Assembly: GCF_014697195.1 (NCBI RefSeq)
Contig: NZ_JACJRJ010000045.1
Location: forward strand, 1-51,654
DNA length: 51,654 bases
From: Cylindrospermum sp. FACHB-282
GTDB taxonomy: Bacteria; Cyanobacteriota; Cyanobacteriia; Cyanobacteriales; Nostocaceae
Direction of reading: 5' to 3'
A program made the position numbers and the translations under genes. This document shows, one piece after another, positions 305-13,626 of the stretch; within the stretch, counting starts at the first letter, position 1; each line of letters begins with the position of its first letter. Below the pieces are notes generated by a model that was not told the origin of the DNA, made no database searches, and was given only the letters and a program-made list of their open reading frames with translations.

Positions 305-1786
305 ATGTACTTGACATCAAAACCAGTGCAACAACTGCCCGCTTTCAAGCTCAAGTTACCATTTGTGGGGGAAAGTAAGGGTAGTTATCGGACTCAGCAA
401 CCATTACCAGGATGCCCGATTATGCCCCCATGTCTGCAATTGCGCCAGTATCAGCAACAAGCGATCGCAGGCTGGTTTGCTAATAACGGCAGAGGAACGC
501 TAAAAATGGCTACTGGTAGTGGTAAAACTATCACTGCACTGGCGATCGCTTGTGAATTGTACCAACAGATAGGCTTACAAGTTTTATTGGTGGTGTGTCC
601 CTATCGTCATCTTGTCAGCCAGTGGGCGCGAGAATGTGATAAATTTAACTTGCAGCCAATTTTAGCCTTCGAGAATTTACGCAATTGGCAAAGTCAACTT
701 TCCACCCAAATCTATAATCTGCGTTCTGGTTCTCAAGAGTTTGTGACGGTGATAACCACCAACTCTACTTTAATTGGCGATGGCTTTGGTTCACAACTCA
801 AGTATTTTCCCGCCAAGACTTTAATTATCGGTGATGAAGCCCATAACTTAGGCGCACCAAGGTTAGAGGAAAGTTTACCCCGCCGTGTTGGGTTGCGACT
901 AGCTTTGTCAGCGACACCGGAGAGGTATTTTGATGATGGCGGTACTCAATCATTATTTGATTATTTCGGCCCGGTGCTACAACCAGAGTTTACCTTGCGG
1001 GATGCGATCGCACAAAATGCTTTGGTACACTATCTCTATTATCCCGTGCTTGTGGAGTTGACAGAGGCTGAAAGCATTGCTTACTTAAAGTTAACCAAAA
1101 AAATCGGCCGTTCTCTACTTTATCGAGAAAGAGAAAATGGCAATGGTGGAGACTTTGAAGACAACGAAGATATCAAATCGTTATTGATGCAACGCGCCAG
1201 GTTAATTGGTGCAGCAGCCAATAAATTAACCGCTTTGCGGGAATTAATGGCAAATCGCCGCCAAACCACTCACACCCTTTTTTATTGTAGCGATGGTTCA
1301 CAAGATGCAGGACAACGTTCATCTTTGCGTCAACTCAAAGCCGTTGCTAAAATTTTGGGAATAGAATTGGGATACAAAGTCAGCACCTACACCGCTCATA
1401 CCTCTTTACAAGAAAGGGAAGCTTTGCGCCTGCAATTTGAAAGCGGCGAGTTACAAGGTTTAGTAGCGATTCGCTGTTTAGATGAAGGTGTTGATATTCC
1501 GGCAATTCAAACAGCTGTCATTTTATCAAGTTCTGGTAATCCCCGTCAATTTATTCAGCGCCGGGGACGAGTTTTGCGCCCTCACCCTGGTAAAGAACGC
1601 GCCACCATCTTTGACATGATTGTTTTACCACCAGACTTAGACAGAGAAACCATTGAAGTAGAACGCAACTTGTTAAAAAAGGAATTGCGGCGCTTTGTGG
1701 AGTTTGCTGATTTAGCCGATAACGCCGGCGAAGCAAGGATGAAGTTGCTAGATTTGCAGAAGCGCTATGGGCTATTGGATCTTTAA
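305..1786 (+). CDS. DEAH-box helicase, Dnd-associated restriction protein
   Basis: This is a superfamily 2 DNA helicase/translocase of the type found in restriction systems. The RecA-like domain 1 carries Walker A (ATGSGKT), the DEAH box (GDEAHN) and motif III (SATPE). Domain 2 carries EGVDIP and motif VI (QRRGRVLRP). Length from ATG 305 is 493 aa. An in-frame TTG at 173 would add 44 residues encoded by heptamer repeats, so I prefer ATG 305; ATG 422 is also possible. Helicases of this kind are known from cyanobacterial Dnd loci as candidate phosphorothioation-dependent restriction enzymes. I infer that role from similarity and from the dnd genes downstream. No nuclease domain is obvious, so cleavage may need a partner such as the SMC-like ATPase that follows. 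Confidence 0.8.
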   Translation: MYLTSKPVQQLPAFKLKLPFVGESKGSYRTQQPLPGCPIMPPCLQLRQYQQQAIAGWFANNGRGTLKMATGSGKTITALAIACELYQQIGLQVLLVVCPYRHLVSQWARECDKFNLQPILAFENLRNWQSQLSTQIYNLRSGSQEFVTVITTNSTLIGDGFGSQLKYFPAKTLIIGDEAHNLGAPRLEESLPRRVGLRLALSATPERYFDDGGTQSLFDYFGPVLQPEFTLRDAIAQNALVHYLYYPVLVELTEAESIAYLKLTKKIGRSLLYRERENGNGGDFEDNEDIKSLLMQRARLIGAAANKLTALRELMANRRQTTHTLFYCSDGSQDAGQRSSLRQLKAVAKILGIELGYKVSTYTAHTSLQEREALRLQFESGELQGLVAIRCLDEGVDIPAIQTAVILSSSGNPRQFIQRRGRVLRPHPGKERATIFDMIVLPPDLDRETIEVERNLLKKELRRFVEFADLADNAGEARMKLLDLQKRYGLLDL

Positions 1787-2135
1787 TATAGAATTTAGAT
1801 TGCAGAAAAAGAAACGGCGTTTATCTACATCTATAGGTGGTTAGAAACATCCGATTTTATATTTTTTTTTGTAAAATTACTTCTAAAGTTAGAGCAGAAG
1901 ATGCGCTGATATGAAATAATAGACAATATAGAACAGTCAATATAATGGGGGCTAAGTCAAATTTTATTGAAAGCACAACTTCCCATTATAAAGCTTGACA
2001 ACAAGCATAACATAGCGCCTCCAAAAAATAAAGCTTTTTCTAGCAAAAAATTTTCAATTTACCAACTACAATTTGCCAAATCTCCTGCTGACTAAAAACG
2101 GTTAAAATAGGGAAAACATATATCTAAAAACCGAG
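1787..2135. other. AT-rich intergenic stretch before the 57-aa gene
   Basis: About 350 bp with no convincing ORF or hairpin. It is AT-rich with long T and A runs and presumably holds the promoter for the 57-aa/SMC pair, but I cannot place one with confidence. Confidence 0.5.
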
Positions 2136-2309
2136 ATGTCACAAGAGGCAATCATCGATGATGTGCAAGAACCAATTACCAGCGCACCGCCAGAAGTAAG
2201 ACAAATAATTGAGAAGGTGTGGAGAGTAGAGAAAAGACGACTAGATCGCAAACTCAAAAGTCCTATTATTGATGAGATTTTAGATATAGTGAAGGAAGCG
2301 GTACAATGA
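2136..2309 (+). CDS. 57-aa small protein coupled to the SMC-like ATPase
   Basis: A short ORF of 57 codons starts MSQEAIIDDVQ and ends in VKEAVQ. Its stop codon overlaps the ATG of the SMC-like gene (ATGA, 2306-2309), the arrangement of translationally coupled partners. The N-terminal third is acidic; residues 20-40 are rich in Arg/Lys with a predicted helix (EVRQIIEKVWRVEKRR), and the end is a second likely helix. I do not recognise a family. From position I infer an accessory subunit of the ATPase encoded next. Confidence 0.65.
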   Translation: MSQEAIIDDVQEPITSAPPEVRQIIEKVWRVEKRRLDRKLKSPIIDEILDIVKEAVQ

Positions 2310-4378
2310 AGCTGACTTCAATTAAATTATGTAATTTTCGCTCTTTTTATGGCAGAACTCCAGAGATAAATCTGGCTGGTGGCAATGAACGCAACACCAC
2401 AATTATTCACGGCAATAATGGAGCCGGAAAAACCAGTCTATTGAATGCCTTTACTTGGGTGTTATATGAAAAATTTAGTGCAGCTTTTGCATCAACAGAG
2501 CAGCTAGTAAATAAAAGAGCGATCGCCGAATCTCAACCAGGACAACCGGTAGAATGTTCAGTAGAACTTGGTTGGGAACATGAAAACACCCGCTACCGAG
2601 CTAAACGCGCCTGTCGAGTTTATAAAAATACTCATGAAATAGAAGCTGGGAAAACGCAGCTAACTTTGTGGGTAGGTGGAGATGATGGTAAATGGAATAT
2701 TCCCAATCAGTTACCAGACGAAATCATCACCCAGATTTTACCAGCGAGTTTACATCAATATTTTTTCTTTGACGGCGAGAGGATTGAAGAAATAGTCCGT
2801 TCTGATCAAAAAGCCGAAATTGCCGAAGCAATCAGAACTTTTTTAGGTGTAGAAGTAATTGAACTTTCAATCAAACACTTGAAAGATGCCAAGAAAAATT
2901 TAGAAGCAGACTTAAAAAACATCGGTGATGCGGAAACAAAACAGTTATTGATTCAGCAAGAAAAGCTAGAAATTGACATTGAAATTATCACCCAGCGCCA
3001 AACGGAAATCAAACAAGACTTAGAACATCAACAGACATTTAAAAAAGAAGTCAGTAACCGATTGCGAGAACTTAGCGCCGTCAAAGAATTGCAAGAAAGA
3101 CGTCAGAGTTTGGAATCTCAGAGAGATGCCAATCGGGAAGAACGGAAGAAAACAAAGGAAACTTTGAAAAAAGTCATCTCTGCGCGAGGTTACACAGTTC
3201 TGTTATCAGAAACTACAACCCAGTTTCGGGAGATATTCACAGATTTAAAACAGCGCGGTGAATTAACAGCGGGAATTTCGCGGGAATTTGTGAATGAGTT
3301 GCTAAAATCCGAACGTTGTATTTGTGGTGCAGATTTACAAGACGGTAGTCATTCCCATCTGAACGTCAAAACATTGCTAGATAAAGCAGGTTCTTCAACA
3401 GTAGAAGAAACAGCAATTCGCATGAGTGCCCAAGTAGATGAAATTGATAAGCAAGCAACATCGTTTTGGGAAGAAGTAGATAGAGAACAAAGGAGAATTA
3501 AGCAGTTATCAGAAAATATAAATCAAGTTGAAATTGAATTAGATGGCATTCAAGAACAACTGCGAAAAAATCCCAATGAAGAAATCAGCAACTTACAGAA
3601 ACGCTTAGACGAAATTGAAGCAAAAATTGATGAATTAAATCGAGAACAGGGTGGAAATCAACAGGAAATCGCTCACCTAAAAACAGAAATTGATGACTTA
3701 GTCAAAAAAATCGCCAAGCAAAAACAAAATGAAACAAAGCAATCGTTAGCACAACGACGCATCAATGCTACTCAAGACGCTATCGAACGTTTATCAGAAA
3801 TCAAAAATCGTCAAGAAAAACAGTTTCGTGTGCAATTAGAAAAGCGGGTGCAGGAAATCTTCTCAGAAATTTCTTTTACTCCCTACCTTCCCAAAATCAG
3901 CGAGAAATATGAACTGAGTTTGGTAGAAAGTACGACGGGTATCGAAGCACCAGTTGCAGCTTCCACGGGAGAAAATCAAATTCTCAGTTTATCTTTTATC
4001 GCCAGCATCATTGATAAAGTGCGGGAATGGAGTGAGAAACGAAAAATGATTATGGTTCCTGATAGTAGCACTTTCCCTATTGTGATGGATTCACCTTTTG
4101 GTAGTTTGGATGCAAATTCTCGCCGACACATTGCCAGAACAATCCCTAAATTAGCAAATCAGTTAATTGTGTTAGTGACTAAGACGCAATGGCGGGGTGA
4201 GGTGGAGGAGGAAATAGCAGCGAAAATTGGTAGAGAATATGTGTTAACTTACTATTCTTCTAAGCCTGATTGCGAACAGGATTATATTCAGTTAGGTGGA
4301 GAGAGATACCCTTTGGTGCGTCAAAGTCCAAATGGATTTGAGTATACTGAAATTATTGAAGTTGAACGGAATAGGTAA
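2306..4378 (+). CDS. DndD-like SMC/Rad50-type ATPase
   Basis: A 690-aa ABC-type ATPase with split head and long coiled coil. Walker A is GNNGAGKTS (residues 36-44). A YFFFDGERIEE block lies near 150-160, matching the equivalent FLFDGEQV block of the true DndD further down. A long charged coiled coil (about 200-550) is interrupted near 338-340 by a CxC motif (CICG) at the hinge, where Rad50-type hooks have CxxC. The signature is STGENQILSLS and Walker B is IVMDSPFGSLD near 592-602. The ATG overlaps the stop of the 57-aa gene. It sits between the helicase and the dnd genes, so I infer a DNA-end or lesion-sensing ATPase in the restriction arm. It is a paralogue of DndD rather than DndD itself. 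Confidence 0.8.
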   Translation: MKLTSIKLCNFRSFYGRTPEINLAGGNERNTTIIHGNNGAGKTSLLNAFTWVLYEKFSAAFASTEQLVNKRAIAESQPGQPVECSVELGWEHENTRYRAKRACRVYKNTHEIEAGKTQLTLWVGGDDGKWNIPNQLPDEIITQILPASLHQYFFFDGERIEEIVRSDQKAEIAEAIRTFLGVEVIELSIKHLKDAKKNLEADLKNIGDAETKQLLIQQEKLEIDIEIITQRQTEIKQDLEHQQTFKKEVSNRLRELSAVKELQERRQSLESQRDANREERKKTKETLKKVISARGYTVLLSETTTQFREIFTDLKQRGELTAGISREFVNELLKSERCICGADLQDGSHSHLNVKTLLDKAGSSTVEETAIRMSAQVDEIDKQATSFWEEVDREQRRIKQLSENINQVEIELDGIQEQLRKNPNEEISNLQKRLDEIEAKIDELNREQGGNQQEIAHLKTEIDDLVKKIAKQKQNETKQSLAQRRINATQDAIERLSEIKNRQEKQFRVQLEKRVQEIFSEISFTPYLPKISEKYELSLVESTTGIEAPVAASTGENQILSLSFIASIIDKVREWSEKRKMIMVPDSSTFPIVMDSPFGSLDANSRRHIARTIPKLANQLIVLVTKTQWRGEVEEEIAAKIGREYVLTYYSSKPDCEQDYIQLGGERYPLVRQSPNGFEYTEIIEVERNR

Positions 4379-4404
4379 ACTCAGATTTTGCACCAATTGC
4401 TAAA

Positions 4405-4454
4405 AGCCGTGAACTAAAGTTCCGGCTGTAAGCATAAACCAGTTAAAACTGGTT
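4405..4454. repeat. REP-like double hairpin
   Basis: Two adjacent imperfect or perfect palindromes lie just after the SMC gene: AGCCG...CGGCT around an AACTAAAGTT core, then AACCAGTT-AA-AACTGGTT (4437-4454). The two-hairpin layout resembles REP units mobilised by IS200-like transposases. They may also end the upstream transcript. Confidence 0.7.
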
Positions 4455-4544
4455 AAAAGTTTTGTTTTAGTTAGCTTAAGCTTTCAGGGCTAAATTTATT
4501 TAAGGGCTAATTGACAAAGGCAGTTTTTCCCACAGGAGGAAGTT

Positions 4545-4937
4545 ATGGTTGCTAGTCCAGACAAAAATTATCTGACTCCCCAGGAATACCTGGAATAACT
4601 ATATCTGAAAAGGGGCCGTTTCACTACCCGGATGTTCTAGTAAGTTGTCATCCGAAGGACAAACAAGCAATTAAATTTATTCAATATCCTTGTTTAATTG
4701 TCGAAGTCCTTTCTCCTAGTAACGTAAGTTGCTAGTTAGGAAAACTGTCAGAATCAGGATGTCCAGGATTAAAGGATGAACAGGATGAAAACTGGGATTT
4801 AATCACCAATTACCTATTGCCCATTACCTATTACCAGCAACTTGGGTTATATTGAGGGGGATGAAGTGCATTTAACTAGTGTTGATTTCCGCTTTCCTAT
4901 ATCTTTGGTTTATGAGGATGTGCTGTTGTCGATCTAA
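4545..4937 (+). pseudogene. Uma2-family (DUF820) nuclease-like gene, decayed
   Basis: Fragments in the same strand read as a Uma2 protein. An N-terminus MVASPDKNYLTPQEYLE begins after a good ribosome site (AGGAGGA) and hits a stop. A middle block reads YPDVLVSCHPKD followed by QYPCLIVEVLSPS, the conserved catalytic-core region. A C-terminus EGDEVHLTSVDF runs to LVYEDVLLSI with a stop at 4935. The reading frame is broken by stops and by loss of part of the middle. A non-homologous stretch with heptamer units sits between the second and third fragments. Uma2 genes are abundant and often decayed in cyanobacteria. This copy cannot make a full protein. Confidence 0.8.
4801..4837. repeat. Short heptamer cluster inside the Uma2 relic
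   Basis: About five imperfect heptamers (CCAATTA, CCTATTG, CCCATTA, CCTATTA) lie within the decayed Uma2 gene, of the same class as the arrays at 183-301 and 35598-35639. Confidence 0.7.
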
Positions 4938-5048
4938 TACCGCTATATAATTAACAGTTTTCATATCAATAGCTGAACCCGCAGTAAGTAAGTAGGCGAA
5001 AAGAAATCAAACTATGTTAAGCAAAGTAAAAACTATTGAAATTTGCTC

Positions 5049-5074
5049 GTAGTGAGGGCTTCAGCCCTCACTAC
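5049..5074. repeat. Perfect 12-bp-stem palindrome
   Basis: GTAGTGAGGGCT, a 2-nt TC loop, then AGCCCTCACTAC form a perfect hairpin upstream of the Dnd-associated gene. A related half-degenerate copy is visible near 30455-30483. It is probably a dispersed palindromic repeat rather than a specific regulator. Confidence 0.8.
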
Positions 5075-5235
5075 CAACCTTGAATTATTTACGCCAACCT
5101 ACTTTGCAGGATGGTTGGTGGCGGTGGATAATTTGTTTGTTTAGGCGATCGGATTTTCTGGTTGGTATATTGCGCTTGAATGTGCGATCGCTTTTCGTTT
5201 TCGGTTATGATAGCAACAACGTAGATATTAACATC

Positions 5236-5706
5236 ATGGCTGCAAACAGGATCAAAATTGCTAAAGATAAGGCTGAGTTGGTGAAATCGCTAGTAGCATC
5301 CAAAGAAACAACTGGCCCTTTTCAGACTTATGTAGAGGTAATGGTGTTTGCAGCAGCATTAGGGGTCAAATATAAAAAACGTGTTCCTACTGGAGAAACT
5401 ACAAAAAAAGAACCTTCTCCAATTCCACAAGAAAATTTTGCTTCATTAGGGTATGACAAAATCATTAACTTATTAGGAATCACGGAGACACACGATATAG
5501 AAATACTTGCATCTAGAGAAGAAGAATATGAGGATAAACGCACTCAAATATTTGAAGAGTATGCTAATGGAGGACTGGAAATATTACAAAATGAATTGCG
5601 GGGAGTCCTGGACTACACAGCACAAATTCTAGTAATTTTGATTGCTGCAAGAGACAGTAAAGAAAACACAGAAGAGGAATTTGATTTAAGCAAATTCTTA
5701 AATTGA
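5236..5706 (+). CDS. Dnd system-associated small protein
   Basis: A 156-aa protein starting MAANRIKIAKDKAELVKSL. The open frame extends upstream to 5080, but those 52 residues run through AT-rich intergenic sequence, so I choose ATG 5236. The pattern RIKIAKDKAELVKSL..., GPFQTYVEVMVFAAALG and a C-terminal acidic EEEFDLSKFLN matches my memory of the family called dnd system-associated protein 4, whose biochemical role is unknown. There is no obvious catalytic motif or membrane segment; it looks helical and cytoplasmic. It lies 33 nt upstream of the HNH gene in the same direction, suggesting a shared transcript. Identification is by recalled family pattern plus context. Confidence 0.7.
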   Translation: MAANRIKIAKDKAELVKSLVASKETTGPFQTYVEVMVFAAALGVKYKKRVPTGETTKKEPSPIPQENFASLGYDKIINLLGITETHDIEILASREEEYEDKRTQIFEEYANGGLEILQNELRGVLDYTAQILVILIAARDSKENTEEEFDLSKFLN

Positions 5707-5739
5707 GATATTTTTGTTTAATTTTATAGTAAAAAAAAT

Positions 5740-6685
5740 ATGAATAATCTTAGAGAGTATTGTCAAAGGTTTTCTCAGTTAAATGTGAGTAGTAGTCGTA
5801 AGCGTGGTAGTGCTCAACACAAACCTATATTGCTTTTATCTGTAATCGATTTGATTGCACAAGGTATCATTACTAATAATAAAATTCCAGTTTCAGATGA
5901 TTTGATTCAAACCTTTGATAAATATTGGAATTTAATTGGGTCTCAATCTTACAAAGGGGGTTTGCACTATCCATTTTTCCATCTGCAAAATGAAGGTTTT
6001 TGGTACTTAAGTAAGATTTAAACATGGGTTCAATGGTTTACAGCCAAAAACACCTAACAAGTTAAAAGAGGCTGTCGAATACGCATATTTAGACAATGAA
6101 CTATTTATTTTTCTACAAAATGAAGCTTCTAGAAAAGAACTAATTGATGCACTTATTATGGCTTTTTTTTCTGATGATGAAAATAAAATTGAAGGAATTT
6201 TACAAGTAAATCAAAGCTGGCAAAATTACTCGGATAAGGAAGATAAACAAATTGATTATAGTAATTTAGACATTAATCCCAGATGGAGTTTTAGAAGAAC
6301 AATAGTTAGAAACGCTTTTTTCAGAATATCTGTTGTACGTATATATGAAAATAGATGTGCTTTTTGTGGACTAAAAGTTATTAAAAACGGCAATCAAAAT
6401 ATTGTAGATGGCGCACATATAAAGCCATTTTCACAATTCTATGATAGTAGAATTCACAATGGAATATCACTTTGTAAAAATCATCACTGGGCATTTGATA
6501 TGGGTTGGTTTTCTGTAGATAATCAATACAAAATTATAATTAGTAATGACTTGGAAGAAGTATCTCCCCACGCTAAACCTATGAAAGATTTCCACGGTGA
6601 AAAACTACTTCTACCCAAGACAGAGCAACTTTTTCCAGAAATGGAAGCGTTGGAATGGCATCGTCAGAACATATTTAAAGCATAA
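5740..6685 (+). pseudogene. Probable phosphorothioate-dependent HNH endonuclease, frameshifted
   Basis: The first frame (5740-6021, 93 aa) has HKPILLLSVIDLIAQG and HYPFFHLQNEGFWYLSK. This pattern matches sulfur-binding domains of type IV enzymes that read phosphorothioated DNA. The frame stops at TAA 6019. The +1 frame is open from 6011 and continues (VRFKHGFNGLQP...) through 6685. It carries the HNH domain: CAFCG, DGAHIKPF, NGISLCKNHHWAFD. Removing one base between 6010 and 6019 would restore about 314 aa, the usual size for such enzymes. An independent HNH-only product from ATG 6158 (175 aa) is possible. If intact, the enzyme would cut phosphorothioated DNA, in conflict with resident Dnd modification unless its recognition differs, which may explain inactivation. 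The stop abuts the convergent dndB stop with no gap. Confidence 0.75.
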
Positions 6686-8302
6686 TTATAGAACTGGTGG
6701 AAGTCCTACATCTTTCAATTCAACAAACTTCCCATCAAAACCTATAGTTTTATCTTCTATAGTCCTAGCATCAGCTAAATCCTTACGCAGTTTAGCAAGT
6801 TCCATCTGATCATTAATTCCACCCAAAATATAAATCAGTAACTTCGTTGCTAAATCCTTTCCAGCAACCTGCACCCGCTTCTTATTTGGGTCATACAAAA
6901 CGCCGTACCAAAGAGATTGAGGATACTCCATCCCACTAAATCCTCCTTGCTGGTCAAACTTCCGCAACTTCTTAAAAATAGCTGCTAGAGAAAACCCTTT
7001 TTTAAACACCAAAATTCCCAAAGCTTGGGCTAAAGCCACTTGAGAAACAGGACGGAAAAGCATATTTGCTTCACCTCCTTCCTTCTCAAAACTGAACCGA
7101 CGCAAAACAGGTGTATCCTCATGTTCCAGAATCTTAAAACTAGGAAGGCTGGCTAAATAATCAAAAAGCTGGGTAAATTCCTCAATTCCCTCCTCAAGTT
7201 CATCATCCTCTGGACGCATGGGAATTAGACCTTTTTCTAAAGGTTTCCAATGAGGGAATTTTTGCCCCAAATATCGCTCTGACATATCTTGCAAAGCTTG
7301 CAGCGTCGTTAAAACTGTAGAATTTGCTGCTACTGTTGCACTATTCCAATTAACGCGATCATTACGATCTCCCTTTTCTTTTAAAAGCGGATGAGTAACC
7401 GCGATTTTCCTCGCTACAATCGAAAAACCATCATCCTCATTTAGCTGTGCTAACTGACCTTTAGTTAAGGGTGCAGCCATGAGATTAACATGAACAAAAA
7501 TCGATCTCACCCGTCGCCTTGCTTCGTTGCGAGTTTCCCCAGGTGCAACCGCACAGATAAACTCAATACCAATTTTTTCTTTGGGTAAGCTTTGCAAATA
7601 AGCAGGGTCTACTTGGTACTTTTCTATCAAATCAGTTGCGGTAATAAAACTGTCGTCAGCCGATTTTTCTTTTTTATAGCGCTGAAGTTTGCCAGATTCG
7701 ATTAAGTCCATCAACCCCTGCACACCCATCAGTCGGTGTTGACCATCCAAAGCATATATAGTGATATCATCCTCAGAAATATTTAGCAGACCGACTTTAC
7801 CATCTTTGTCTAGAGGGGTGAAATCAGTAGTAGATTTGTTGGCGCGTCCATCTTTATCCCACTCAGCAGCTTTGGCATTATCCACCCAAGGTTGATTAAT
7901 CACCACCAGCACAGGGGGAAATTTATGATTTTTTCGAGCTGCTAAATACTGTACTAGAGGCGCTTGACGTGACCAGTCAAGGGGACGCTGGCGAATTTCA
8001 TCAATGCTATCTGCATCAATTTCGATATTGTCAGTCTCTGGATTATATTTCTTTTGAAGTAGGGGTAAACCAGAGGCGAAGTGTACCCGACTCGCAAACC
8101 ATTCTAGGGTAACAGAACCTACATAAGCCTCAGTACCACCCATCTCGGTTTTTTGAACGAGAATCTGATCTTTTTTACCTAGAAAGTTCTCCAGCAGCAA
8201 GGCCAGTGACTGTTTATCCTTGTTTTCTTGTTCTAGGTACTCTTTAGCGATTTTAGTAGTTTTGTCAGATGTACTGTCTTTCATGTTAATTTTTAAAAAC
8301 AA
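6686..8302 (-). CDS. dndB: DndB-like DGQHR-domain protein
   Basis: A 538-aa protein with the hallmark DGQHR motif at residues 186-190 (IYALDGQHRLMGVQ), defining the DGQHR/ParB-like family to which DndB belongs. DndB is not needed for phosphorothioation in studied systems; it modulates modification and represses dnd transcription. The protein is longer than the roughly 360 aa I recall for classic DndB, with an extended C-terminal half, so it could be a related DGQHR protein used in cyanobacterial Dnd loci. It diverges from dndC across 172 bp and converges on the HNH gene. The start at 8302 (MFLKIN) overlaps a TTTTTAAAAA palindrome; ATG 8284 (MKDSTSDK) would leave that site in the leader and is equally plausible. 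Confidence 0.75.
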   Translation of the reverse strand: MFLKINMKDSTSDKTTKIAKEYLEQENKDKQSLALLLENFLGKKDQILVQKTEMGGTEAYVGSVTLEWFASRVHFASGLPLLQKKYNPETDNIEIDADSIDEIRQRPLDWSRQAPLVQYLAARKNHKFPPVLVVINQPWVDNAKAAEWDKDGRANKSTTDFTPLDKDGKVGLLNISEDDITIYALDGQHRLMGVQGLMDLIESGKLQRYKKEKSADDSFITATDLIEKYQVDPAYLQSLPKEKIGIEFICAVAPGETRNEARRRVRSIFVHVNLMAAPLTKGQLAQLNEDDGFSIVARKIAVTHPLLKEKGDRNDRVNWNSATVAANSTVLTTLQALQDMSERYLGQKFPHWKPLEKGLIPMRPEDDELEEGIEEFTQLFDYLASLPSFKILEHEDTPVLRRFSFEKEGGEANMLFRPVSQVALAQALGILVFKKGFSLAAIFKKLRKFDQQGGFSGMEYPQSLWYGVLYDPNKKRVQVAGKDLATKLLIYILGGINDQMELAKLRKDLADARTIEDKTIGFDGKFVELKDVGLPPVL

Positions 8303-8474
8303 AATAGTGTAAGCTAGCTTAATCGTCTAAAGAAAGTTGCATATTAATAGTATAGTTTTTAAAAACTTTTTTTAGATCCGCGTAGGTAAGTTTTGCCTGT
8401 GTGGTTATGTGAATTCCATTGACTTAGATGGAACAAATGCAGTCACACCAATGTTTCCAGAGAGGTAGAGAGAA
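8303..8474. promoter_or_regulatory. Divergent dndB-dndC control region
   Basis: The 172-bp gap must hold promoters for both directions. It contains a perfect 14-bp palindrome AGTTTTTAAAAACT at 8354-8367, and a near copy ATTTTTAAAAAC lies at 8289-8300 at the start of dndB, 65 bp away. These two TTTTTAAAAA cores are candidate operators, possibly for DndB itself; that is inference. A weak REP-like segment (GTAGGTAAGTTTTGCCTGTG) sits near 8384-8403. The dndC start is preceded by AGAGGTAGAGAGA, a plausible ribosome site. Confidence 0.55.
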
Positions 8475-10124
8475 ATGACTACAGCACAACAACCAGAAAA
8501 TAAAGATCAGCAGAAACGTACTGTAGCAGAGTTAGTGGACTATATCCAAGCTCTCACCACTGAAATTCAAGAATTGTATTGTTTAGATGAGATACCTTGG
8601 GTTGTAGGCTATTCGGGTGGCAAAGATAGCACTGCTACTTTACAGCTTATCTGGAATGCGATCGCAGAACTACCACCTGAAAAGCGAATTAAGCCAATCC
8701 ATGTTATTACAACAGATACGCTAGTAGAAAACCCTGTAGTCTCTGTTTGGGTACGCAAATCTTTAGAGCAGATGAAAGTAGCTGCCAAAGAAAAGGGAAT
8801 GCCTATTGAACCCCATTTACTACAGCCAGAAATAAAAGAGACATTTTGGGTAAGTTTAATTGGTAAAGGTTATCCAGCACCACGAGGAAAATTTCGTTGG
8901 TGTACAGACCGCCTTAAGATTCATCCTTCTAACCGCTTTGTACGTGATGTAGTTAGAGTCAAGGGAGAAGTAATTCTTGTCTTGGGTACGCGCAAGGCTG
9001 AAAGTGTCAAACGTGCTATCTCAATGGAAAAACATCAAGTAGGTAGCTTAAAAGAACGTCTCAATTCTGATTCAAATTCGCTTAAAACCTTGCTTTATCA
9101 TAGTCCTAGCCTGCCTAATTCTTTAATTTATAGCCCTATCGAAGATTGGCGTACTGATGAAGTTTGGATTTACCTAAATCAGTGGGAAAACCCTTGGGGA
9201 TATAGTAACAAAGACTTATTCATCATGTATCGAGGCGCAACAGCAGATAATGAATGTCCTCTAGTTGTTGATACTTCTACCCCTAGTTGTGGTGATTCCC
9301 GATTTGGGTGCTGGGTTTGCACAATCGTTAATAAAGATAAATCAATGGCGGCAATGATTCAAAATGATGAAGAAAAAGAATGGATGCAGCCTTTATTGGA
9401 TATCCGCAATGAATTAGATATAAAAGATGATAGAGACAAGAGAGACTTCAGAAGAATTTGGGGAGAAGTTCAACTATTTGAGCGTGATTTTGAAGGTGAA
9501 AAATCCATTCAACCAATTCATGGCCCCTATACAAAATATTGGCGGGAACATTGGCTGAGACGAGTATTAGAAGCGCAAACACAAGCCCGTCACACAGCGC
9601 CAGACAATATGCGCGATATCACCCTCATTACTCTCGAAGAAATGAGCGAAATTCGCCGCATTTGGCTAGAAGATAAACACGAATTTGATGATAGTTTACC
9701 TACCATTTATGAAGAAGTAACTGGTGAAGTATTCCATGACCCCCGTCCTGGTGCTGATTCTAGCTTGCTAGGTCTTGATGAGTGGACGGTGCTAGAAGAA
9801 ATATGTGAAGGTGACGCCATGCACTTAGAACTGATGGCGAAATTGTTGGACACAGAACGCCAGTATCGTAAAAAAACTCGTCGTGTGGGTATCTATGAAA
9901 CCCTAGAAAAATGTTTTAATACAAGTTCCCGTTCGCCAGAAGATGCGATTAAAAACGCTCGTTTGAAACGGGAATTAAACGAAGCAGTTAATCAAGGTGA
10001 TGTTGCAAAAGTTAAGCAGCTAACTTTAGGGGATGTACCGGACAAAGAAGAGAATGAAGAGAGTAAACCCGACACTTGGGCAAATTTGAAGTTTGCAAAA
10101 AAGAAGTTAGATGATAGTGAATAA
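8475..10124 (+). CDS. dndC: DndC, PAPS-reductase-like sulfurtransferase
   Basis: DndC is the ATP-pyrophosphatase and Fe-S protein that activates the DNA backbone for sulfur insertion. This 549-aa protein has the PP-loop YSGGKDST (residues 46-53). A GKFRWCTDRLKI block has Cys143. A cysteine cluster, Cys261, Cys272, Cys279 and Cys282 (ECPLV...SCGDSRFGCWVC), fits a 4Fe-4S site. The C-terminal region is charged and helical. It starts at ATG 8475 after AGAGGTAGAGAGA. In typical operons dndC is directly followed by dndD; here an IS200-like gene and a repeat array separate them (about 1.1 kb), so dndD and dndE may depend on read-through or a new promoter. Confidence 0.93.
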   Translation: MTTAQQPENKDQQKRTVAELVDYIQALTTEIQELYCLDEIPWVVGYSGGKDSTATLQLIWNAIAELPPEKRIKPIHVITTDTLVENPVVSVWVRKSLEQMKVAAKEKGMPIEPHLLQPEIKETFWVSLIGKGYPAPRGKFRWCTDRLKIHPSNRFVRDVVRVKGEVILVLGTRKAESVKRAISMEKHQVGSLKERLNSDSNSLKTLLYHSPSLPNSLIYSPIEDWRTDEVWIYLNQWENPWGYSNKDLFIMYRGATADNECPLVVDTSTPSCGDSRFGCWVCTIVNKDKSMAAMIQNDEEKEWMQPLLDIRNELDIKDDRDKRDFRRIWGEVQLFERDFEGEKSIQPIHGPYTKYWREHWLRRVLEAQTQARHTAPDNMRDITLITLEEMSEIRRIWLEDKHEFDDSLPTIYEEVTGEVFHDPRPGADSSLLGLDEWTVLEEICEGDAMHLELMAKLLDTERQYRKKTRRVGIYETLEKCFNTSSRSPEDAIKNARLKRELNEAVNQGDVAKVKQLTLGDVPDKEENEESKPDTWANLKFAKKKLDDSE

Positions 10125-10130
10125 TAGCCC

Positions 10131-10179
10131 CGGCGATTAGAAATCGCGGCTACACAAACAAAACCCACCTCCGTGGGTT
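10131..10179. repeat. REP-like unit upstream of the transposase
   Basis: Two hairpins occur in tandem: GCGATT-AGA-AATCGC (10133-10147) and AACCCAC...GTGGGTT (10162-10179). The identical pair forms the core of each unit in the array at 10765-11235, and a variant is at 46881-47001. It lies 7 nt after the dndC stop, so it may also end the dndC message. Confidence 0.9.
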
Positions 10180-10213
10180 AATGAAATATGGAATTTAAGG
10201 TATCAGAAAAAAT

Positions 10214-10630
10214 ATGAGGTCAAATTTCACGCAATTATATCTACATTGTGTATGGGCAACTTGGGATAGATTGCCTCTAATTAGGCCAGAAATTCAAAAG
10301 TTAGTTTATGCCTCAATTATTCAAGAATGTGAACAATTAAAATGTACTGTAATTGCAATCGGTGGTATTGAAGATCATGTTCATCTTCTAACAGGTTTTC
10401 CGTCAACTGTCAGCGTTGCTGAAGTGATTAAACAGATTAAAGGTAGTTCCTCCCATTTCATTAATCACGAAGTTAAACCAAGTGAGTTTTTCAAATGGCA
10501 AGGAAGCTATGCAGGTTTTACGGTCAGTCATGATGCCATTGACAATGTAGCTAATTATATCAGAAACCAGGCTACTCACCATCATCAAAAATCAACTATC
10601 CCCACATGGGAACTTGTTACAAACAAATGA
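10214..10630 (+). CDS. IS200-like tyrosine transposase (Y1, REP-associated type)
   Basis: A 138-aa Y1 HUH transposase. The HUH motif is DHVHLL (about residues 56-61), followed by the conserved IKGSSSHFIN, FKWQGSYAGFTVS and the candidate nucleophile tyrosine in NYIRNQ. The length is typical of IS200 TnpA. The gene is flanked on both sides by the same two-hairpin repeats, as expected for a REP-associated transposase (RAYT) that acts on them in trans. There is no tnpB beside it. It sits between dndC and dndD in the same direction. The catalytic residues look intact, so it may be active. Upstream sequence shows no clear ribosome site. Confidence 0.88.
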   Translation: MRSNFTQLYLHCVWATWDRLPLIRPEIQKLVYASIIQECEQLKCTVIAIGGIEDHVHLLTGFPSTVSVAEVIKQIKGSSSHFINHEVKPSEFFKWQGSYAGFTVSHDAIDNVANYIRNQATHHHQKSTIPTWELVTNK

Positions 10631-10657
10631 AAATATCAAAAAATTATATTATATTTA

Positions 10658-10743
10658 GCGTAGGCGGACTTCGCCTGTGTAGACGCGAATTCTATTCGCC
10701 CGGTGTTTTTTCTTCGCCTGTGTAACCATCAATTCTATTCGCC
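10658..10743. repeat. Degenerate REP-like hairpins after the transposase
   Basis: Two partial copies of a motif with TTCGCCTGTGTA and AATTCTATTCGCCC follow each other. GGCGGACTTCGCC forms a short hairpin. They share the CCTGTGTAG segment with the inverted half of the REP cluster at 46950-47001, so they look like rearranged ends of the same family. Confidence 0.65.
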
Positions 10744-10764
10744 CAATATTTAATAAAGATACCC

Positions 10765-11235
10765 GGCGATTAGAAATCGCGGCTACACAAACAAAACCCA
10801 CCTCCGTGGGTTGAATAAAATTTAGGTCAATGTTTCATCAATTTAGATACCTTAAGATACCTGGCGATTAGAAATCGCGTCTATACAAACAAAACCCACC
10901 TCTGTGGGTTGAATAAAATTTAGGTCAATGTTTCATCGATTTAGATACCTTAAGATACCCGGCGATTAGAAATCGCGGCTATACAAACAAAACCCACCTT
11001 CGTGGGTTGAAGAGAATTTAGGTCAATGTTTCATCGATTTAGATACCTTAAGATACCTGGCGATTAGAAATCGCGTCTATACAAACAAAACCCACCTTCG
11101 TGGGTTGAAGAGAATTTAGGTCAATGTTTCATCGATTTAGATACCTTAAGATACCTGGCGATTAGAAATCGCGTCTATACAAACAAAACCCACCTTCGTG
11201 GGTTGAAGAGAATTTAGGTCAATGTTTCATCAATT
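10765..11235. repeat. Five tandem 98-bp REP-containing units
   Basis: Units start at 10765, 10863, 10961, 11059 and 11157, each exactly 98 bp apart; the fifth ends early at about 11235. Each has the GCGATT-AGA-AATCGC hairpin, the ACCCACC...GTGGGT hairpin and about 50 bp of nearly invariant sequence (TTTAGGTCAATGTTTCAT then ATTTAGATACCTTAAGATAC). Changes between units fall mostly in hairpin loops and the joining segment. The period is not a multiple of three and no ORF spans it. It ends about 10 nt before the dndD ATG, so it forms the dndD leader. Confidence 0.95.
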
Positions 11236-11244
11236 AAAAAATTA

Positions 11245-13230
11245 ATGATTTTTCTTGAACTCGTTTTACAAAACTTCGGCCCTTACGCTGGGAAACAGAT
11301 AATCAATCTTAACCCAAACATTGATGAAGAAAACTCACGCCCAATTATCTTATTAGGTGGGATGAATGGCGGGGGAAAAACTACTTTGATGGATGCCATT
11401 CGTCTTGCGCTTTATGGACAACGCGCCCAATGTTCTACCCGTGGTAATTTAAGTTATTCCGATTTTCTCAGTCAATGTGTTAACAGCAAAATAGACCCAG
11501 CTAACGACACCCGGATTGAATTGCTTTTTGAACATATCGAAAACGATAAACCAATAAAGTACCGTGTTGTAAGAAGTTGGAGAAAAAATCCTAAAGATGG
11601 TAAAGATACATTAGGTATTTTGGGTGATAGTGACACATGGCCTGATGCTTTAGTTAATATCTGGGATGAGTATATAGAAAACCTTCTACCCTTGGGTATT
11701 TCTAATTTATTTCTCTTTGACGGTGAACAGGTTAAAGAACTCGCAGAACAGGAAACCCCACCACCGATTGTTGTTGAAGCGATTCGCGGACTTTTAGGAC
11801 TGGAGTTGGCAGACAGGTTAGCTGTTGATTTAGATATTTTAGTTAATCGAAAACTCAAAGAGGTTGCTAATACTAAAGATTTAGCAAATTTAGAGGAGAT
11901 TGAAACTAGGTTAACGCAGCAACAAGAAGATTATCAAAATACAGAAGAGGATTTAGAAACTTATAAACTTCAGGTAGCAGAATTAGGGAATCAGCAGCAG
12001 GAAGCTTTTGATAAATTCATTTCAGAAGGTGGTAAAATTGCCGCTGAACGTAATCAATTAGAATTACAGCAGCAGGCAAAAACTGGGGAAATTGAACAAG
12101 TGCGGCAGTCAATGGCTGAATTAGCTGCTGATGTTTTACCCCTGGCATTAATTCCTAATTTGCTGAATCAGGTGCAAGCACAGGGAGAAAAAGAATTTCG
12201 CCATCAACAGGTACAACTCGCTAGAGATTTATTACTTGAGCGAGATCAGCGGTTATTAAGTTGGCTAAAGCAAGCAGAAATTTCCTCAGCGCAAGTTGAA
12301 AAAATCCAATCTTTTCTAGTTCAAGATGTAGATAGTTTATATGCAAAATCTCTTCAGACAGAAGCACCTTGGCTTTTAGCTGATGAAGAAAGTTTGAGTC
12401 AATTAGATAATTTAATCTATCGCTTGCAGAATTCTCGAACTTCTGCACAACAGCAGTTAGCTATTATCAAAAATAAAGAAGAAGAAATTATTACCCTAGA
12501 GAGACAAGTGCAAACAGCCGCAGCACCAGAAGATTATAAAAAGTTGCTGAAGGCATTGGAAGAAGCACAAAATCAAGTTGCTGAAGCTAAAGCTAATTTA
12601 GAAACTACCCGCCGCCGTTTAGCTGAATTAGAAACTATTATTTCTAGGTCAAAAAAGGAGTTAAATACATATACTGTAGAAAATATCAAGCATAAAAATA
12701 GTGAACATATTATTAATGCTGCGGCTAAAGTTCAAAATACACTAAAGATTTTTCGCGATCGCCTAACCCTGCGAAAACTCAACAAACTAGAAGAAGAAGT
12801 AAAAAATTGTTTCCTCTATCTCCTGCACAAATCAGACTTAGTGCATCGCATCGCCATAGACACCAAGACTTTCAGCCTCTCCCTTTATGACCTCAATGGT
12901 AAACCCGTCCCCAAACACCGCCTTTCCGCCGGGGAAAAACAACTATTAGCGATCGCCTTTTTGTGGGGACTAGCCAAAGTCTCCGGGCGCAGATTACCAG
13001 TAGCCATCGACACACCCCTAGGCAGATTAGACTCATCCCACCGCAGCAACCTAGTTGAACGCTACTTCCCAGCCGCCAGCCATCAAGTCATCCTCCTCTC
13101 CACCGACACCGAAATCGGCAAACAGGAGGTAGAAAAACTACGAGACAACGAAGCGATCGCTCACGAATACCTTCTAGAATACAACTCCTCCACCCGCCAA
13201 ACCACCATCAAACAAGGTTACTTCTGGTAA
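11245..13230 (+). CDS. dndD: DndD, SMC-like ATPase
   Basis: DndD is the ATPase/nicking-associated subunit of the phosphorothioation complex, forming the modification core with DndC and DndE. The 661-aa protein has Walker A GGMNGGGKTT (38-47), FLFDGEQVKEL near 150-160, a coiled-coil middle (about 200-500), the ABC signature LSAGEKQ (560-566) and Walker B/D-loop AIDTPLGRLD (587-596). The N-terminal MIFLELVLQNFGPYAGKQ is typical. There is no zinc hook CxxC. The ATG at 11245 has no visible ribosome site and follows directly on the 98-bp array. The gene has a 9-nt gap to dndE. Confidence 0.93.
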   Translation: MIFLELVLQNFGPYAGKQIINLNPNIDEENSRPIILLGGMNGGGKTTLMDAIRLALYGQRAQCSTRGNLSYSDFLSQCVNSKIDPANDTRIELLFEHIENDKPIKYRVVRSWRKNPKDGKDTLGILGDSDTWPDALVNIWDEYIENLLPLGISNLFLFDGEQVKELAEQETPPPIVVEAIRGLLGLELADRLAVDLDILVNRKLKEVANTKDLANLEEIETRLTQQQEDYQNTEEDLETYKLQVAELGNQQQEAFDKFISEGGKIAAERNQLELQQQAKTGEIEQVRQSMAELAADVLPLALIPNLLNQVQAQGEKEFRHQQVQLARDLLLERDQRLLSWLKQAEISSAQVEKIQSFLVQDVDSLYAKSLQTEAPWLLADEESLSQLDNLIYRLQNSRTSAQQQLAIIKNKEEEIITLERQVQTAAAPEDYKKLLKALEEAQNQVAEAKANLETTRRRLAELETIISRSKKELNTYTVENIKHKNSEHIINAAAKVQNTLKIFRDRLTLRKLNKLEEEVKNCFLYLLHKSDLVHRIAIDTKTFSLSLYDLNGKPVPKHRLSAGEKQLLAIAFLWGLAKVSGRRLPVAIDTPLGRLDSSHRSNLVERYFPAASHQVILLSTDTEIGKQEVEKLRDNEAIAHEYLLEYNSSTRQTTIKQGYFW

Positions 13231-13239
13231 ACCCAAATT

Positions 13240-13626
13240 ATGGAATCCCCAATCGAACGGATCAAACTTTCCCAAACAGCCAAAGACCAACTACTAAAAC
13301 TCAAACGCAGCACCAAAATCGACCAATGGAATATCCTCTGTCGCTGGGCCTTTTGTCGTTCCCTAGCAGAACCAACCGCACCCTCCCCCGTACCAATTCC
13401 CCAAGATAGCAACATCGAAATGACTTGGCGCGTCTTTGGCGGCGAAATCTCAGATATCCTCCTCCTTGCCCTCAAGCAACGTTGCTACAACGACGGCTTA
13501 AGTACTGACAAAGAAACCCTTGTCCTGCAATTTCGCCTCCATTTGCATCGTGGCATTGGTTACTTAGCAGGAGATCAAAATATCAAAAAGATTGAGGATT
13601 TAGTTGAATTAGCGACGAAGAACTGA
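13240..13626 (+). CDS. dndE: DndE
   Basis: DndE is a small DNA-binding component of the phosphorothioation complex. This 128-aa protein starts MESPIERIKLSQTAKDQLLKLKRST and contains WNILCRWAFCRSL, then TWRVFGGEISDILLLALKQR and FRLHLHRGIGYLAG, the usual DndE pattern, at family length. The many Lys/Arg residues fit DNA contact. It lies 9 nt after dndD and closes the dnd operon. A different base composition (C-rich) begins near the end of dndD, consistent with mosaic origin. Confidence 0.93.
   Translation: MESPIERIKLSQTAKDQLLKLKRSTKIDQWNILCRWAFCRSLAEPTAPSPVPIPQDSNIEMTWRVFGGEISDILLLALKQRCYNDGLSTDKETLVLQFRLHLHRGIGYLAGDQNIKKIEDLVELATKN

Follow-up and report, generated by a model that had tools for sequence, protein, structure and literature searches.

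A phosphorothioation locus of Cylindrospermum sp. FACHB-282 with a PbeABCD-type restriction arm, and coupled switching of PbeD and DndC in Nostocaceae

Results

Gene content of the locus

We analyzed a DNA phosphorothioation (PT) locus at positions 305-13626 of a 51,654-nt stretch of Cylindrospermum sp. FACHB-282 (NZ_JACJRJ010000045.1, assembly GCF_014697195.1), the whole of which is referred to below as the window. The locus begins with a superfamily 2 (SF2) helicase gene, followed in order by a gene for a 57-amino acid (aa) protein, a CxC-type ATP-binding cassette (ABC) ATPase gene, a dnd_assoc_4 gene, a broken gene for a sulfur-binding domain (SBD)-HNH protein, a dndB-family gene on the minus strand, dndC, a presumed IS200-like gene, dndD and dndE. 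The features needed first are as follows.

305-1786, plus strand: PbeA-type SF2 helicase, 493 aa, N-terminal HKD nuclease domain absent
2136-2309, plus strand: PbeB-type small protein, 57 aa, overlapping the start of pbeC
2306-4378, plus strand: PbeC, CxC-type ABC ATPase, 690 aa
5236-5706, plus strand: PbeD (dnd_assoc_4), 156 aa, predicted DndE fold
5740-6685 (pieces 5740-6021 and 6158-6685), plus strand: SBD-HNH gene of the effector slot, frameshifted
6686-8302, minus strand: DndB-family DGQHR protein, 538 aa
8475-10124, plus strand: DndC sulfurtransferase
8883-8891, plus strand: Arg-Gly-Lys triad of the DndC specificity loop, residues 137-139 (loop as in PMC12193691)
11245-13230, plus strand: DndD ABC ATPase, no CxC
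13240-13626, plus strand: DndE

An initial annotation of the same DNA had recognized the core dndB, dndC, dndD and dndE genes, and profile scores bear this out: dndC (TIGR03183, 722 bits, cut-off 290), dndD (TIGR03185, 750 bits, cut-off 246) and dndE (TIGR03184, 134 bits, cut-off 72) all lie above curated cut-offs, and dndB corresponds to the DGQHR/DndB-family gene on the minus strand (TIGR03187, 202 bits, cut-off 59; PF14072, 45.5 bits, cut-off 29.1), for which no match to the DndB equivalog TIGR03233 was listed. No DndA/IscS cysteine desulfurase gene was seen in the locus, the rest of the genome not having been searched for one. TIGR03237 (dnd_assoc_2), which we take to be DndH, matched none of 100 relatives (a set that includes the window's genome) and no control genome either, so that we draw no conclusion on dndFGH from it. 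Absence of dndFGH from Nostocales has been reported (Jian 2021, PMC8569181).

The helicase, placed on the restriction side by the initial annotation, is a "DNA phosphorothioation system restriction enzyme" by TIGR04095 (665 bits, cut-off 600) and PbeA by PADLOC (535 bits). Of the 682 positions of the best PbeA model, those before 242 were left unmatched, and alignment with an HKD-bearing PbeA showed the HKD part to be missing; 63 sequences measured were 490-508 aa long. Natrinema, Halorhabdus, L. plantarum and Pseudanabaena likewise have helicases (457-477 aa) that lack the HKD part. Judged by its sequence, the window helicase is a non-canonical variant of PbeA (493 aa, HKD absent).

The 57-aa open reading frame (ORF), proposed to be coupled to the second ATPase, lies 5' of PbeC in all 80 named relatives (61-84% identity), with the identical pbeC overlap in 78; in one relative the overlap is 15 bases off, and in another (L063) the ORF lies 1.6 kb away. 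Because it is kept in 80/80 relatives we regard it as a true gene and reject a chance frame. Genes for 48-63-aa proteins occupy the equivalent place in Ruegeria, Pontibrevibacter, Natrinema, Halorhabdus, L. plantarum and Pseudanabaena. We assign the protein as PbeB by position, overlap, similar length and a weak alignment; profile scans of the window proteins placed it in no library family above its cut-off.

The second ATPase had been described as a DndD-like structural maintenance of chromosomes (SMC) protein. Both ATPases, PbeC and DndD, do carry FxFDGE, but the product of 2306-4378 scored 186 bits with the DndD model, under the cut-off of 246, and is of the CxC/PbeC kind (PADLOC PbeC, 1150 bits). 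The CxC motif at the coiled-coil apex (CIC in the window protein) was present in 92/92 PbeC proteins read and in 0/43 DndD proteins, those of the window included. A tree was built from PbeC of cyanobacteria, Ruegeria, Pontibrevibacter and haloarchaea, DndD of cyanobacteria, Ruegeria, E. coli and Arthrobacter, and E. coli SbcC; for Arthrobacter the PbeC was a fragment of 391 aa, and DndD of E. coli and Arthrobacter had additional residues ahead of the start. Cyanobacterial, Ruegeria and haloarchaeal PbeC stood apart from the rest (0.99 at the split), the DndDs formed one clade (1.00), and SbcC sat on a long branch. The second ATPase thus forms a clade beside DndD; a generic Rad50/SbcC protein was rejected, as the tree separates SbcC and the Rad50/SbcC models scored far under cut-off. 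The L. plantarum ATPase and an HKD-type PbeC of one relative (G087) fell outside the PbeC group, so that "PbeC" is not a single clade. As a separate observation, the window DndD, which lacks CxC, scored 975 bits with a PbeC model of PADLOC-DB 2.0.0 and 822 bits with the best DndD model. The PbeC models of that release therefore mix true DndDs and CxC ATPases, and PADLOC "PbeC" calls need a CxC check.

The restriction set as initially listed was incomplete, since it missed a fourth gene at 5236-5706, PbeD (TIGR04062, 196 bits, cut-off 74). An AlphaFold2 model of PbeD from 21 sequences reached a predicted local distance difference test (pLDDT) score of 82.9. Searched against 350,542 PDB chains, it returned DndE at all of ranks 1-7 (E 0.24-1.0, probability 0.54-0.87); the remaining matches among the best 50 of 97 were unrelated, with probabilities ≤0.05. 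A PDB sequence search with dnd_assoc_4 and PbeC gave no match. The second ATPase pair is, on this model, PbeC with its own DndE-like PbeD, and with PbeD so predicted to have a DndE fold the locus would hold two ATPase-DndE pairs, DndD-DndE and PbeC-PbeD.

These genes match a known system. PbeABCD was described beside archaeal dndCDEA, where all four pbe genes and PT were needed for ~10^4-fold protection against virus SNJ1 and the viral DNA stayed uncut (Xiong 2019, PMC6459918), and a later analysis identified PbeA as an HKD nuclease plus SF2 helicase, PbeB as small and disordered, and PbeC as a CxC ABC ATPase whose DndE is PbeD (Rakesh 2024, PMC10853773). The arm is therefore not the distinct Dnd-linked defence type that had been proposed, having been published already as PbeABCD and as a CxC ABC-ATPase system in these two papers. 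The suggestion that one ATPase serves modification and the other restriction is in line with both.

PbeD and the N-terminal half of DndC switch together in Nostocaceae loci

We compared protein distances among 53 loci, namely that of the window and the 52 of 80 named loci in which PbeC, PbeD, DndB and DndC were each covered over >90%; such correlations share phylogeny, and permutations are approximate. PbeD distances correlated with those of DndC (r 0.58), with values of 0.23 for PbeC and 0.22 for DndB, and the PbeD-DndC partial correlation given PbeC and DndB was 0.56 (p 0.0005). For DndC residues 31-250 the partial r was 0.69, compared with 0.19 for residues 331 to the end, and within PbeD the signal was strongest in residues 43-114. 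Thinning to 26 lineages left 0.54; HNH loci taken by themselves gave 0.34 and the other loci 0.80. Given PbeC, DndC showed no such relation to the helicase (-0.00) or to PbeB (-0.04).

The co-varying half of DndC includes the part to which the specificity loop maps, GYPAPTRSFRW at residues 135-145 of E. coli DndC (Fu 2025, PMC12193691). An Arg-Xxx-Lys/Arg loop is read in that paper as the G-PS-GCC type, and the window's Arg-Gly-Lys triad thus predicts G-PS-GCC as its PT motif. PbeD sequences were clustered by average linkage, with cluster numbers (4 and 6) set by us, single linkage of PbeD and DndC giving no useful groups. The triad was RNQ in 12/12 loci of PbeD cluster 1, RNR in 6/6 of cluster 3, and RGK in 10/17 of cluster 2 and 13/16 of cluster 4. 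Adjusted mutual information between triad and cluster was 0.64 for PbeD, 0.06 for PbeC and 0.09 for DndB. The nearest PbeD from another lineage (PbeC divergence >10%) predicted the DndC triad in 42/53 cases where 13.1 were expected (permutation p 0.0002, the lowest value that 5,000 shuffles allow), while the nearest PbeC did so in 18/53 and the nearest DndB in 16/53. A same-genus relative illustrates the pattern: it is 97, 92, 97, 94 and 97% identical to the window in helicase, PbeC, DndB, DndD and DndE and 84% in PbeB, as against 59% in PbeD and 74% in DndC.

Since PbeD and the N-half of DndC switch together while PbeC and dndB follow the lineage, PbeD is likely the target reader of the restriction arm, matched to DndC as the writer. 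A different cause of the covariation would be physical contact, PbeD and DndC touching each other rather than reading one DNA motif. Contact would agree with the extent of the co-varying DndC segment (31-250), which takes in the entire N-half and not just the loop. We nevertheless find this explanation unlikely, given that the loop triad itself tracks PbeD clusters 1 and 3, and that no covariation is seen in the part of DndC meeting the DndD head in a published model (residues 433-482 in E. coli numbering); windows over 391-520 gave 0.02-0.08, the last 29 residues lying outside the windows.

The slot between pbeD and dndB is variable

The space between pbeD and dndB was examined in 55 named loci. 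It held an SBD-HNH gene in 24, a DndB-family gene in 18 and a large DGQHR gene in seven; among these seven, a weakly GIY-YIG-like gene accompanied it in five (one was scanned, E 0.0005), and a sixth had a different GIY-YIG gene. AIPR genes were found in four loci (two beside SBD-HNH), and another HNH gene in two; in one locus a DGQHR gene was accompanied by a weak HEPN-like match (E 0.0096), and one slot was empty.

The initial annotation had assigned a sulfur-binding HNH enzyme to the window. An SBD-HNH gene is indeed there, but it is broken by a frameshift, with pieces 5740-6021 and 6158-6685 in different frames matching NF045808 at 27 and 98 bits (cut-off 180) and also matching PF13391. In relatives the copies are open in 22/25 cases; the NF045808 cut-off was reached in 0/100 genomes, those with open copies included. 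These open copies sit inside PT-writing loci although relatives of such enzymes cut PT-marked DNA, a setting in which self-cleavage would have to be avoided.

Slot type goes with PbeD cluster (HNH in 17/17 loci of cluster 2 and 0/12 of cluster 1), and pbeD, slot and dndC lie a few kb apart in most of the loci, as would be expected if a single recombination tract carried all three together. Against such hitch-hiking, dndB lies between pbeD and dndC and yet shows no covariation with PbeD (partial 0.05, p 0.22, in the 53 loci; 0.12, p 0.05, in a subset of 34), following PbeC instead (r 0.85). We consider a shared tract improbable.

Distribution and vertical inheritance of the system

Within the 100 relatives, PbeC (matches at E ≤ 0.001) and DndC were each found in 90, dnd_assoc_4 in 89, and DndE and the helicase over their cut-offs in 88 and 86; 80 genomes had all five genes and six had none. 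Two of the 90 PbeC genomes hold a stop-ridden fragment (G044) or a split gene (G049), and a further genome (G016) retains decayed remnants of dndB, dndC, dndD, dndE and helicase. In an even sample of 386 genomes of the phylum (104 of the window's order and 282 others), PbeC occurred in 90 and DndC in 93: both in 87, PbeC alone in three, DndC alone in six, neither in 290. The corresponding counts within the order were 86, two, six and 10 (Fisher p 2e-8, uncorrected for phylogeny). With PbeC in 88/104 members of the order and 2/282 other genomes of the phylum, the PT-Pbe system is core genome in the window's order. Together with the ATPase clade beside DndD, this co-occurrence with dndC means that neither outcome named beforehand as speaking against the initial annotation, a helicase-small protein-ATPase trio widespread without dndCDE or a second ATPase among Rad50/SbcC proteins, was found.

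Both genes are kept even where pbeC and dndC are far from each other, with 53 kb to 3.3 Mb between them on a single contig in 13 genomes; only this count of distant pairs is used, as the list of 27 single-contig genomes missed close pairs (G013 and G049 at least). Across the order, distances were compared in 36 genomes plus the window (37; for the helicase, 34 plus the window). Correlation with gyrB was 0.86 for PbeC, 0.82 for the helicase, 0.66 for PbeD and 0.58 for DndC. PbeC and helicase correlated at r 0.94 (partial 0.79 given gyrB), and PbeC and DndC at r 0.65 (partial 0.36 given gyrB, permutation p 0.0015); the "mirror tree" for DndD is weak, resting on nine genomes plus the window.

The place of the arm is also fixed. 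A presumed lexA gene, named from its sequence, lies directly 5' of the helicase, on the same strand and 45-302 bp away, in 62/62 named loci holding the helicase, and a presumed ornithine carbamoyltransferase gene, named in the same way, lies ≤3.5 kb upstream in 61 of them. In the window's family, as read by eye, lexA and helicase lie within 0.7 kb in 54/57 genomes with both; one more pair is 1.6 kb apart and two are split by contig ends, one being the window's genome. Outside the family, adjacency was seen by eye only in G076. In the window's genome lexA closes a different contig (C110, 5,901 bp), whose terminal repeats are those found at the start of the window:

1-112, no strand: TGGGTAA heptamer repeats at the contig end, position 1 falling inside them

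With the pattern of Mazon et al. (quoted in PMC3091678), a LexA-box-like site was found within 300 bp before lexA in 62/62 loci, and in the lexA-helicase gap in 0/62. With a box 5' of lexA and none in the gap, the helicase may be transcribed by read-through from the lexA promoter.

Such constancy raises the possibility that DndBCDE and the nuclease-less Pbe arm serve not defence but a core epigenetic or DNA-repair/antioxidant function of Cyanobacteriales, with the helicase behind lexA being damage-responsive. The near-universal presence in the order and near-absence elsewhere in the phylum, the invariant lexA neighborhood with its box and the tracking of gyrB by PbeC all fit this idea, and an antioxidant origin has been proposed, restriction genes being thought absent in cyanobacteria (Jian 2021, PMC8569181). 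The coupled switching of DndC and PbeD and the exchangeable slot, by contrast, resemble an arms race, and the slot often holds nuclease genes (SBD-HNH in 24/55). A purely house-keeping role thus appears unlikely to us, if slightly less so than a PbeD-DndC contact.

Some exceptional loci were seen. One genome (G087) has the cyanobacterial nuclease-less arm (L137, C145) plus a second, HKD-bearing PbeA-PbeC-PbeD set (L140, C174) beside SBD-HNH and dndC. A Pseudanabaena galeata plasmid (L261) carries helicase, small gene, ATPase and dnd_assoc_4 beside type I-D cas genes, a rare mobile copy with no dndBCDE annotated within the 22 kb shown. A genome with no PbeC, DndC, PbeD or DndE matches has, at locus L153 (G015:C1:972000-988000), an open helicase (681 bits) directly behind lexA; being kept without them, the helicase may have a separate role.

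Mobile and degenerate elements in and around the locus

One further gene is inserted among the writer genes:

10214-10630, plus strand: presumed IS200-like transposase, between dndC and dndD

This gene is also found in 9/80 named loci. The stretch between it and dndD (10640-11240) contains, as judged by eye, a ~117-bp unit, which includes a short palindrome (ACCCACC...GTGGGT), repeated in tandem about five times. A remnant at ~4545-4960, between pbeC and pbeD, was likewise recognized by eye as Uma2-like, a presumptive name taken from the annotated Pseudanabaena plasmid; an ORF of this family occupies the same place in 36/59 named loci. Beyond the 3' end of the locus, the minus strand at 17428-18642 carries a 404-aa ORF that we presume to be TnpB-like.

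The HNH frameshift, the IS200-like insertion, the Uma2-like remnant and the helicase at the contig edge might together mean that the arm is dead in FACHB-282. However, the remaining ORFs are all full length, five proteins are 92-97% identical to those of the same-genus relative, the IS-like and Uma2-like genes recur at matching places in relatives, and a truly decayed locus (G016, L145) looks different. We regard decay as very improbable.

Discussion

Starting from the directly observed gene identities, order and co-occurrence, the DndE fold predicted for PbeD and the joint switching of PbeD and the DndC N-half in Nostocaceae loci, we think it probable that the locus is a DndBCDE PT writer with a PbeABCD-type restriction arm, in which the helicase is nuclease-less and PbeD holds specificity. 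DndD-DndE would bring DndC to its motif and so mark self DNA. PbeC, the CxC ATPase, and DndE-like PbeD would scan for the same motif, with target specificity residing in PbeD, which would then have to change whenever the specificity half of DndC changes. At an unmarked motif, PbeC-PbeD may engage the PbeA helicase/translocase, which would keep the invader from replicating. This would agree with archaeal PbeABCD, for which a block without degradation has been reported. PbeB may couple or restrain PbeC. The slot gene would be an exchangeable added effector, and as it is broken in FACHB-282 the helicase block would have to act alone there.

A bolder version, which we put forward tentatively and at slightly short of an even chance, likens PT defence in Nostocaceae to a split Type I restriction-modification system: a fixed scaffold of PbeA, PbeB, PbeC, DndB, DndD and DndE, and co-switching parts consisting of the DndC N-half (writer), PbeD (reader) and the slot effector. 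PbeD would be the target-recognition subunit of Pbe restriction, and the RNQ loop, which lies outside the three published loop patterns, would mark an undescribed PT motif.

Several observations weigh against PbeD as the specificity holder. Order-wide, the PbeD-DndC partial r was 0.08 (p 0.19, 37 genomes), and PbeD followed PbeC (r 0.80, partial 0.62 given gyrB; in a separate test, partial 0.55, p 0.001); outside the family the triad was predicted in only 4/22 genomes. In 12 genomes with pbeD and dndC not in one extracted stretch the PbeD-DndC value was 0.11 (p 0.30). Either PbeD is too diverged across the order or the link is local to Nostocaceae. Even in the family, subsets gave partial values of 0.12-0.14 (p 0.02-0.05) for PbeD with helicase, PbeB, DndB and DndD, and DndC also co-varies with DndD (0.37). 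In congener pairs the differences in DndC are spread along almost the entire protein and are not confined to the N-half, and a second congener has the window's RGK loop with a PbeD only 63% identical; this congener and the overlapping triads of the two RGK-rich PbeD clusters mean that the triad alone does not fix PbeD type. The fold match of PbeD to DndE is specific yet weak (E 0.24-1.0, template-modelling score to the target 0.56-0.62), and in sequence-profile comparison dnd_assoc_4 was tied significantly neither to DndE nor to one canonical PbeD. A PbeD-DndC contact would yield equal covariation. Finally, Rakesh 2024 (PMC10853773) argues that Pbe systems do cleave DNA.

The closest relatives of the system differ from it in instructive ways. 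DndCDEA-PbeABCD of Haloterrigena jeotgali (PMC6459918) shares the helicase, small protein, SMC-like ATPase and second small protein adjoining dndCDE; in the window, PbeA is a 493-aa protein that lacks HKD, PbeD is separated from DndC by dndB and a slot effector, and inheritance is vertical and core. The correlation of DndCD with PbeAC reported there was 0.107, whereas PbeC and DndC gave r 0.65 and partial 0.36 here, with a different method and gene set. The CxC ABC-ATPase-DndE systems of PMC10853773 share the CxC ATPase with its own DndE, the small protein, the SF2 helicase and diverse nucleases (HNH with winged helix-turn-helix/SBD, URI/GIY-YIG, HEPN), and variability of DndE clades was proposed there as target specificity. 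The vast majority of them have HKD fused to the helicase, absent from the window arm, and their small protein is rapidly evolving, unlike the well-conserved one of the cyanobacterial loci. Neither "cyano" nor "covar" appears as a string in the main text of that paper, and coupled PbeD-DndC switching is not in the sections consulted, supplements aside. Ruegeria plasmid pTHAF33_d (NZ_CP045388.1) shares dndBCDE, restriction helicase, a 63-aa gene, AAA ATPase, dnd_assoc_4 and a DGQHR protein, in the annotated order dndB, dndC, dndD, dndE, desulfurase, two other genes, restriction helicase, 63-aa gene, AAA ATPase, dnd_assoc_4; it differs in its 694-aa helicase with HKD, its plasmid location and the cysteine desulfurase gene in the locus. 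SBD-HNH architecture is shared with the PT-dependent endonucleases of PMC7461809, <3.6% of which, as predicted there, are possibly tied to a dnd cluster, compared with SBD-HNH inside the dnd-pbe locus in 24/55 loci here, 22/25 copies being open. In cyanobacteria, dnd was found enriched in Nostocales and DndD partly congruent with the cyanobacterial tree, and an antioxidant origin was inferred (Jian 2021, PMC8569181); "PbeA" occurs 0 times in that main text.

Searches of open-licence papers for the names of the arm, supplements aside, gave no description of coupled PbeD-DndC switching. As to how a PT restriction arm picks the sites that it inspects, the coupled switch points to one 156-aa protein, and if this view of PbeD and DndC is true it suggests how self and foreign DNA are distinguished. 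Provided that the Pbe arm is counted as such, cyanobacteria do possess PT restriction genes, and the antioxidant-origin argument of Jian 2021 needs revisiting. Our results also suggest that some PT systems are stable core genome beside lexA and not mobile islands alone.

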